Origin: Marinilabiliales bacterium
GTDB taxonomy: Bacteria > Bacteroidota > Bacteroidia > Bacteroidales > F082
Assembly: GCA_002869315.1 (NCBI GenBank)
Contig: PKTD01000241.1
Span: 1 to 42,522, forward strand
Direction of reading: 5' to 3'
Length of the DNA: 42,522 nucleotides
Position numbers and translations under genes: made by a program. Below are positions 19,618 to 38,311 of the stretch, piece after piece. Each line of letters begins with the position of its first letter. The first letter of the stretch is position 1. Below the pieces are notes generated by a model. It ran no database searches. It saw only the letters and a program-made list of their open reading frames with translations, and was not told where the DNA came from.

Positions 19618-20316
19618 TTATCCTTTAGTTGCAATTTGTTCCAATTTCTCAGCATCCAGAATTTTTAGATCTCCATTTTCAAATTCCAAAAGTTTTTCTT
19701 CTTCAAACGATTTCAATAATTTTTTTGCTGAATCCCGGCTTATACCTGTTAACTCAGCAATGTCATTAATGCTGAGTTTTAAACGAGGGCCACTTTCGCA
19801 ATAAATTTCCTTACTTATTAAACTTATTGTTTCTGCCAGTTTGCCCGTATTTTGTTTAGTAGCCATACTGTGCAGTTTGTTTACTATTTCTAATAAAAAT
19901 GAATTTAAATTTTTGAAATATTCAAAGGAAAATTTGGCATTATTCTGAAGAATTTCTTTTATTACTTCTTCTTCTATAAAGCAAATCTGGCAGTTACCCA
20001 TTGCTTTTAAAGAAAAATGATATTTATTATCGGTAAAAATTCCCGGTGATATATAAAATTCACAAGGGCGTATGATCTTTACCGTAAGGTCTTTATGCTT
20101 GCTGTCTTCTAAATATAGTTTTGCAAAACCCGATTTTAGATATACTATATGACTACTTACAGTACCGGTTTTTTGAATTAGTTCTCCATCAAAAAAATGA
20201 ACAGTATTTTTACCCGAACTGAACAAAGATTTCTGAGCATCACTCAAATACTTTATCAGAAAGGATGAATTATTGCAATTTTGGCAATCAAGAAAGTTTT
20301 TATTCTTTAAGTCCAC
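19618..20316 (-). CDS. Crp/Fnr-family transcriptional regulator with N-terminal CxxC
   Basis: cNMP-binding-like N-terminal domain, HTH LSINDIAELTGISRDSAKKLLKSFEEEKLLE; N-terminal FLDCQNCNNSSF. Confidence 0.9.
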   Translation of the reverse strand: MDLKNKNFLDCQNCNNSSFLIKYLSDAQKSLFSSGKNTVHFFDGELIQKTGTVSSHIVYLKSGFAKLYLEDSKHKDLTVKIIRPCEFYISPGIFTDNKYHFSLKAMGNCQICFIEEEVIKEILQNNAKFSFEYFKNLNSFLLEIVNKLHSMATKQNTGKLAETISLISKEIYCESGPRLKLSINDIAELTGISRDSAKKLLKSFEEEKLLEFENGDLKILDAEKLEQIATKG

Positions 20317-36252: not shown

Positions 36253-37380
36253 TTATAAACCTAATGCTGTTTCAGCCTGAGTTAATAATTGTTTAGCATA
36301 TCCGAAGTTATGTAAACCATGACTCTTGTCTTCCCATAAACACATAAAGTTCCAGAAAGCATTCCACTCGTCTCTTGGAAGAGAAGCATACATTGGGTGT
36401 ACACCATCGTCGGCAACGTGAATTGCACCTATTCCTTCTAAAGCAACTTCAACAGCATGCATTCTGTCAGCTATGGCTGCCATCTCTGCTTCAATATCTA
36501 GAGCATCTCCGTGACATTCATTACACATAGCAATATTTGGTGAAAATGTGTGGCCTGAACCTTCTTCTTTTGATAAGTGACAGCCAGCACAATCTGTGTG
36601 ATGATCTCTGTCAAATGGAGCACCAGCAACAGTTCCAATATCAGCCGCAAAAATATTTGCCTGAGGACCGTGGTGTGGTCCAGCATGAGTACTACTAGTA
36701 TAAACATGGGTTGTAGGTACATCGAAAGTAACAAATAAAGTATCACCTACTAATTCCATAGTTCCGTTAGGTCCTATAGCACCATGTGCCTGATATACAG
36801 CAATATCTTCACCTGTGAATTTTCTGCTATATGTAGCGTCTTCAGTTTTGTTGTCGTAGCCAGTTGAAGCTCTTCTTGCCTGGTGACATGTAGCACAGGT
36901 ATTACCCATACCATGCTCATAAGTAGCACCTTCAATAGCAATAGATACAACCGGACTAGCAACGCTACGCATTGGAGCGCTTATACCATCTTCTAAACTA
37001 CTGTGGTCTGCATGACAAGTTTGACAAGTTACTGGAGTAGAAACTGCGGCACCAATTTCTTCACCTGATCTTGCGAACTCAATAAAACCGTCACTTGAGT
37101 GACAACGTCCACAAGAACCGCTTGTTCCACGAGCCCAAGATGAACCCGTTACGTGTTTTGTTTGATCAAAAGCAGCGTGAATATCACCCATATTAGCGGC
37201 GGTGTGACATACTAAACAAGATACGTTTCCGTCAACGCCGTCTTTTCCGTCTGATCCGTTTGTTCCATCTGCACCATCTTTACCAGCAGGGCCTGCAGGT
37301 CCCTCTTTAGTACATGATGCCATCATTCCTATAACAAATATTATTGATATAAGGAAATAACTAAAATAATTTCTTTTCAT
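36253..37380 (-). CDS. Multiheme c-type cytochrome lipoprotein with collagen-like (Gly-X-Y) N-terminal segment
   Basis: Lipobox-like MMASC; GPAGPAGKDGADGTNGSDGKDGVDG; six CxxCH motifs (CLVCH, CGRCH, CQTCH, CATCH, CAGCH, CNECH). Confidence 0.9.
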   Translation of the reverse strand: MKRNYFSYFLISIIFVIGMMASCTKEGPAGPAGKDGADGTNGSDGKDGVDGNVSCLVCHTAANMGDIHAAFDQTKHVTGSSWARGTSGSCGRCHSSDGFIEFARSGEEIGAAVSTPVTCQTCHADHSSLEDGISAPMRSVASPVVSIAIEGATYEHGMGNTCATCHQARRASTGYDNKTEDATYSRKFTGEDIAVYQAHGAIGPNGTMELVGDTLFVTFDVPTTHVYTSSTHAGPHHGPQANIFAADIGTVAGAPFDRDHHTDCAGCHLSKEEGSGHTFSPNIAMCNECHGDALDIEAEMAAIADRMHAVEVALEGIGAIHVADDGVHPMYASLPRDEWNAFWNFMCLWEDKSHGLHNFGYAKQLLTQAETALGL

Positions 37381-37518
37381 GATTAATAATTGTTTAATTA
37401 AACTTAAATGTTAAAAATTACAAATTTTATTACGTTCAAAAATAACAATTAGTCATGTAGCTTTACAAAAAACACAACTGATATAATTGCTGTTCGAAAT
37501 TTAACTAAGATGAAATAT

Positions 37519-37595
37519 TATTGATATATCTCAATATTTTTTAATATAAATTATTGTATTGAGATAATATTTGCTATGTTTGTATTGAGAAATAT
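37519..37595. promoter_or_regulatory. Operator-like cluster and promoter between the cytochrome and Crp/Fnr genes
   Basis: TTGATatatCTCAA (37521-37534, near FNR-type TTGAT-N4-ATCAA); direct repeat TTGTATTGAGA at 37554-37564 and 37580-37590; promoter TTG (37554-37556)-N18-TATGTTTG (37575-37582). Confidence 0.55.
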
Positions 37596-37657: not shown

Positions 37658-38311
37658 ATGTTTACAAACGTTTTAAGATATCTTGAACCAGAGCAATTAA
37701 AAAAAATTGAGGAGATAAAATTTCCTGTAAACTTTGCGAAAGGGGAAACAATTTTTAAGCAAGGAGCGCCGCTAACTCATATTATTGTTATTAATAAAGG
37801 ACTCTTAAAAGTATATCTTGAAGATAGGGAACAGCATAGTATTATTTTGCGATTAATAAAAAGTGGAGAGATTGTTGGAGGTCCAGGATTTCATACCGAT
37901 TACCGTCATCATTTCTCTTTAACAGCGCTGGAAGAAACAGAAGCATTTTTCATAGATGTGATGCAATTTGAAAATTGTTTATTGCAAAATTCCACCTTTG
38001 CAATTAAGTTCATTGCCTATTTAAATAAAGGACATATAGGGCTTTATAATAAATTGAGGGTGTTCGAACATAAGCACATGAATGGAAGGATGGCTTCTAC
38101 TCTATTATATTTGTCGGAACAGATTTATGAAGCTGAGGAATTTGAAACTGAACTTTCACGTCAGGATATAGCCGACATGTCAGCAATGACAAAAGAGAGT
38201 TCTATTAGGCTCATTAAAAACTTTAAAGATTCAGGTATTATAGAATGCAATAATAACCATTTTAAATTGTTGGATAAAGAGCACCTTATAAATATAATGG
38301 AAAATGGATAA
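37658..38311 (+). CDS. Crp/Fnr-family transcriptional regulator
   Basis: cNMP-like domain (FAKGETIFKQGAPLTHIIVINKGLLKVYLED) and HTH ELSRQDIADMSAMTKESSIRLIKNFKDSGII; resembles the 19618-20316 regulator. Confidence 0.9.
   Translation: MFTNVLRYLEPEQLKKIEEIKFPVNFAKGETIFKQGAPLTHIIVINKGLLKVYLEDREQHSIILRLIKSGEIVGGPGFHTDYRHHFSLTALEETEAFFIDVMQFENCLLQNSTFAIKFIAYLNKGHIGLYNKLRVFEHKHMNGRMASTLLYLSEQIYEAEEFETELSRQDIADMSAMTKESSIRLIKNFKDSGIIECNNNHFKLLDKEHLINIMENG

Follow-up and report, generated by a model that had tools for sequence, protein, structure and literature searches.

FNR, known from Escherichia coli and Aliivibrio fischeri, is an oxygen sensor that carries a 4Fe-4S cluster and recognizes the site TTGAT-N4-ATCAA. 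Its classical operators are found at -41.5 or -61.5, whereas the sites described here lie at about -95 and -52 of a predicted Bacteroidota promoter. The cluster-less FNR relatives DNR, NnrR and FixK show FNR-type DNA recognition without 4Fe-4S ligands. Haem or NO binding is the mark of the DNR, NnrR and HcpR group. For CrpPg (PG0396) of P. gingivalis, we know of no link to cytochromes. In the searched literature, the control of outward electron transport in Bacteroidota is hardly known.

The window, i.e., the whole stretch of 42,522 nucleotides that was analyzed, contains a gene for a Crp/Fnr-superfamily regulator without FNR-type cluster cysteines (37658..38311, plus strand). It is divergent to the gene of a c-type, lipoprotein-like cytochrome (36253..37380, minus strand), an arrangement present in many genera. 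The intergenic region has a GC content of 17% and holds the FNR-type dyad TTGATATATCTCAA (37521..37534, no strand assigned), a putative operator at about -95 relative to the predicted start of the cytochrome transcript. FNR-type dyad, Crp/Fnr regulator, TAnnTTTG promoter and multiheme cytochromes are all of known kinds. An earlier description of the three-part architecture reported below, or of the regulator family, was not found in the searched literature, which had most subscription journals outside its scope; within the same scope, no prior description of collagen-like multiheme lipoproteins was found.

Dyad conservation and promoter geometry

The dyad matches nine of the ten positions of TTGAY-N4-RTCAA, one base off the family consensus, and most relatives reach nine or ten. 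Chance levels were taken from 2000 dinucleotide shuffles of the intergenic region, and a dyad scoring at least nine of ten positions turns up in 9.6% of them. Conservation was ranked over 267 windows of the intergenic alignment of ten genomes, drawn from g1, the genus of the window, and from another genus, g7. The dyad windows take ranks 1 and 2, making this the top conserved 14-nt stretch, in genomes that are mostly drafts and, being kin, are not independent samples. The proposal of the initial annotation that an FNR-like dyad lies between the Crp/Fnr gene and that of a multiheme cytochrome is supported by this ranking. Orthologs of the Crp/Fnr gene were collected first among 60 relatives and later across the family (173 genomes); most of the cysteine-bearing ones also have an FNR-type dyad upstream.

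Over the whole genome, the plain pattern TTGAYN4RTCAA gave 36 matches against 28 for the reversed pattern, and TTGAYATWTATCAA with one mismatch allowed gave 20/15 against 15/8, both weak on their own. Two dyad matches were rejected: one on contig C205 adjoins an interrupted thioredoxin-like ORF, and one at C310:19092 has the letters of the dyad of the congener G002, yet is intragenic. The apparently interrupted ORF (L092:1067-1315) is flanked by ArsR-type and CcdA-like genes. On contig C2 (L112:2671-2684), an exact dyad, TTGATATCTATCAA, lies 88 nt before an Fe-S oxidoreductase gene with 4Fe-4S and CCG domains. A box-like TATTCTTG stands there at +62; at the cytochromes the box is about two helical turns farther away, so the cytochrome geometry is absent.

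The proposed target gene (36253..37380) encodes a protein with Pfam cytochrome c3/c7 similarity, a signal with SC, a short collagen-like GXX stalk and six CxxCH haem motifs, and would be a surface lipoprotein. Its predicted -7 box, TATTTTTG (37437..37444, minus strand; consensus TAnnTTTG), starts 83 nt from the dyad centre. A TTG with -33-like spacing, 21 nt before the box (37466..37468, minus strand), is a weak candidate read from the sequence. The second site is a half-operator TATATCA (TGATATA on the plus strand; 37479..37485, minus strand), which starts 42 nt from the dyad centre. In this phylum, the main sigma factor uses TAnnTTTG as its -7 box, which in Flavobacterium psychrophilum occupies -12 to -5 (PMC7366714, PMC9723704); by this count, the positions of the dyad centre and the second site are near -95 and -52, respectively. 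In the cytochrome direction, TAnnTTTG is found at +81 to +83 from the dyad centre in all ten genomes, and TATATCA at +41 or +42 in nine of the ten cytochrome promoters, one genome being without the half-site. In per-promoter shuffles, a box at such a position occurs in 0-0.6% and the half-site in 0-0.3%.

The same genome contains a second, exact dyad, TTGATATTTATCAA (contig C17:6143), upstream of an unlinked cytochrome operon. This operon encodes a monoheme cytochrome lipoprotein, a DUF5777 barrel, a NapC/NirT-like cytochrome, a c7-type cytochrome and cytochrome b561, and is followed by a further c7/CxxCH protein. In promoters of this type the dyad is again the top conserved window (rank 1 of 210), and in all eight genomes examined from g1 and g7 it lies 113-123 nt ahead of the monoheme start codon. 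TATATCA stands at +42/43 in seven of the eight (TAAATCA in the other), with TAnnnTTG at +83/84. The spacing of dyad, half-site and -7 box is thus common to 10 cytochrome and 8 unlinked monoheme promoters, and at each of them it is rare in shuffles. At this fixed offset, strict TAnnTTTG is present in 14 and TAnnnTTG in all of the 18 promoters, as in a housekeeping promoter. The monoheme operon adjoins the regulator in several other genera, suggesting that the module originated as one locus. In some aligned promoters, L185 among them, there is one more half-site, GATATATCA-like, at a distance of about 21-22 bp from the dyad; this hints at a site for every second turn of the helix.

The geometry was derived from g1 and g7 and later tried on other families, so that the fairest test comes from the scans of the order and the class. 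Scans covered 173 genomes of the family, 393 of the order and 395 of the class, with the reversed pattern as control. In the family, dyad plus box at the cytochrome distance gave 28 matches, distributed over 23 genomes; the reversed pattern gave 6. Where the second site is present as well (16 matches), a c-type cytochrome gene always follows at 29-63 nt; of the 12 matches without it, 7 show no cytochrome. The three-part pattern was matched 11 times in the order and 5 times in the class genomes (own genome counted once in each), and its reversed version not once in either set. Outside the own genome, 11 of the 14 matches precede collagen-stalk multiheme or monoheme cytochromes, one is beside a cysteine-bearing FNR-like gene and two are chance-like. 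In these scans, nearly all occurrences of the three-part architecture are in front of c-type cytochromes, for the most part multiheme lipoproteins with a collagen stalk. Pattern and close regulator occur together in 13 of the 23 pattern genomes (hypergeometric 2e-7, kinship ignored). In two congeners (G004 and G003; L174 and L175), a 292-aa CxxCH lipoprotein comes after the same dyad-box spacing without the second site.

On the side of the regulator, a possible -7 box TATGTTTG (37575..37582, plus strand), with a TTG 18 nt upstream, is present as claimed earlier. It lies 47 nt from the dyad centre, and TAnnTTTG is found at +47 in all four genomes of g1, not in g7. In several cysteine-bearing genera, the dyad starts 20-21 nt before the GATATTTG box of the regulator; its left arm is therefore the -33 TTG of the regulator, a position that would suit repression. 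Autoregulation of the Crp/Fnr gene, the main suggestion of the initial annotation, is thus possible and plausible, but the promoter geometry on this side varies between genera. Control of the cytochrome is the better-supported part of that annotation, and the emphasis moves to it because the fixed geometry is shared with an unlinked cytochrome operon. The regulator could also be mainly a repressor that acts on the cytochrome, on its own gene or on both, with the far cytochrome sites forming a loop. The genera in which the dyad covers the -33 to -7 region of the regulator fit such a role. It nevertheless appears unlikely: the cytochrome sites, near -95 and -52, are outside the core promoter and keep their spacing at two unlinked promoters, and far sites at fixed spacing are the usual layout of upstream activation. 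Judged from the position of the sites, activation is most likely.

The regulator and its cysteines

The membership of the regulator in the Crp/Fnr superfamily follows from its cNMP_binding (PF00027, 2.6e-16) and HTH_Crp_2 (PF13545, 7.2e-13) domains, both above cut-off. The NCBIfam FNR model, on the contrary, gives the window protein only 43 bits, far from its cut-off of 228. The nearest solved structure by sequence, although distant, is PDB 2GAU, the P. gingivalis CrpPg, which is classed as a cAMP-independent Crp homolog (PMC12040651).

The window protein has no cysteine before residue 107, unlike FNR proper with its 4Fe-4S sensor, a point that the initial annotation does not make. At the position that we take to align with C122 of E. 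coli FNR, it has no cysteine either. Most relatives possess an N-terminal CxxC, often with a third cysteine nearby, and an internal cysteine presumably equivalent to C122. By alignment and tree, the window protein belongs to a clade of nine proteins with zero N-terminal cysteines (support 100/99), nested among cysteine-bearing proteins. The aligned internal cysteine is absent in the window protein and three congeners and is kept in one protein of g7 (L006). A separate, partial loss of the N-terminal CxxC, with one cysteine left, is seen in genus g3 (L010, L057, L058 and L059). A misplaced start does not hide the motif, because the upstream frame has 225 aa for a 217-aa protein.

The recognition helix keeps the Glu and Arg of the FNR/CRP type. 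The segment that we take to align with E72, R82 and S83 of E. coli CRP reads GGPGFHTDYRHHFS, where, given uncertain gaps, the CRP Glu and Arg are presumably absent. As both the helix residues and the operator are kept, DNA recognition is apparently unchanged despite the loss of the sensor. Read from the sequences, the clade has lost the cluster cysteines and the operator has outlived that loss.

Six other Crp/Fnr paralogs are present in the genome, several of them with CxxC. A second Crp/Fnr gene in the window (19618-20316, minus strand) has an N-terminal CxxC, is 30% identical to the first and has no FNR-type dyad upstream. Three paralogs (L033, L034 and L035) are found within about 9 kb of one contig, C73.

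The sites could be read by one of the other, cysteine-bearing paralogs, with the adjacent cysteine-less protein role-less or modulating. Apart from the number of paralogs with CxxC motifs, this agrees with the presence, in the congeners G003 and G004, of a cysteine-bearing relative (L063 and L064) with its own FNR-type dyads in the same geometry. However, a comparable upstream dyad is missing from all six paralogs of the window's genome, and throughout the cysteine-less clade the adjacent regulator and the dyad stay paired, with the recognition helix kept. A reading by a paralog appears unlikely.

The direct copies beside the dyad

All strings of the initial annotation were found at their positions: TTGATATATCTCAA at 37521-37534, TTGTATTGAGA at 37554-37564 and 37580-37590, and TATCTCAATA at 37527-37536. 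The last one, listed separately as an inverted copy, belongs to the dyad itself as its right half. The two TTGTATTGAGA copies (37554..37564 and 37580..37590, both plus strand) rank only 121 and 176 of 267 in conservation. G002 has a 94% identical regulator, and its first copy is already broken and reads TAATGAGA; the second is kept in that genome only, and no TATTGAGA direct copies are present in the remaining congeners. Among the shuffles, 21% contain some exact 11-mer direct repeat, 0.4% contain one with at least three G+C, and 1.1% contain an 8-mer with at least two G+C in three copies. By composition alone, the dyad is unremarkable and the direct copies are unusual; the conservation ranking reverses both. 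Conservation, proposed at the time as a check, thus holds for the dyad across ten genomes and fails for the direct copies outside the nearest relative; the two copies are probably incidental. A cluster of three TATTGAGA operators controlling the Crp/Fnr gene is highly improbable in spite of the rarity of such a G+C-containing repeat in shuffles, since the direct copies are unconserved, one being broken already in the nearest relative, and a genome-wide search gave zero matches to TATTGAGA-N0-6-TCTCAATA, leaving the genome without any other such dyad.

Proposed circuit and comparison with known systems

The dyad is likely the operator for the divergent Crp/Fnr-type regulator, which would be an upstream activator of the multiheme cytochrome and of the unlinked operon. 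A regulator dimer would bind at 37521-37534 and probably also contact the TATATCA half-site, which lies 43 bp closer to the promoter on about the same helix face. From about -95 and -52, it would activate the TAnnTTTG housekeeping-type promoter of the multiheme cytochrome and, alike, the unlinked monoheme/DUF5777/NapC/NirT-like/c7/b561 operon. In most relatives, the FNR-like cysteines probably hold an iron-sulfur cluster that reads oxygen or NO. In the cysteine-less clade, where these ligands are gone, the circuit would have to be constitutive, respond to another signal or be set by the level of the regulator. We infer the binding by the 37658-38311 protein, as well as the cluster chemistry and the signal. 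The best reading is that an FNR-type surface-cytochrome activator had its oxygen/NO sensor lost or replaced.

More tentatively, the rigid two-site module (dyad, half-site after 43 bp, -7 box after another 40 bp) may be a dedicated switch for surface multiheme cytochromes throughout the class Bacteroidia, driven in the clade of the window by an FNR relative that has no iron-sulfur sensor and reads a different signal. As a signature with almost zero chance matches, the three-part motif finds cytochrome genes so controlled straight from genomes, and it also points to the regulator and to promoters for testing. The cysteine-less clade is a natural experiment, in which the sensor of an FNR circuit is removed and the operators are kept.

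For the target genes, a likeness in kind is found in an electrode-community Bacteroidetes MAG, with a cluster of six multiheme cytochromes and a beta barrel resembling the unlinked operon (PMC8258643). That paper describes the genes only; regulation is absent from it. On the side of the regulator, the superfamily fold, the FNR-type dyad, the cysteine ligands in most relatives and the proposed control of respiratory genes are shared with FNR. Unlike FNR, the window protein lacks the N-terminal cysteine motif and the aligned internal cysteine; it fails as FNR proper on its cysteines, and its predicted FNR-type behaviour at the DNA stands. In this it is similar to DNR, NnrR and FixK. Unlike these, the window regulator represents a separate Bacteroidota lineage, paired with multiheme cytochromes.
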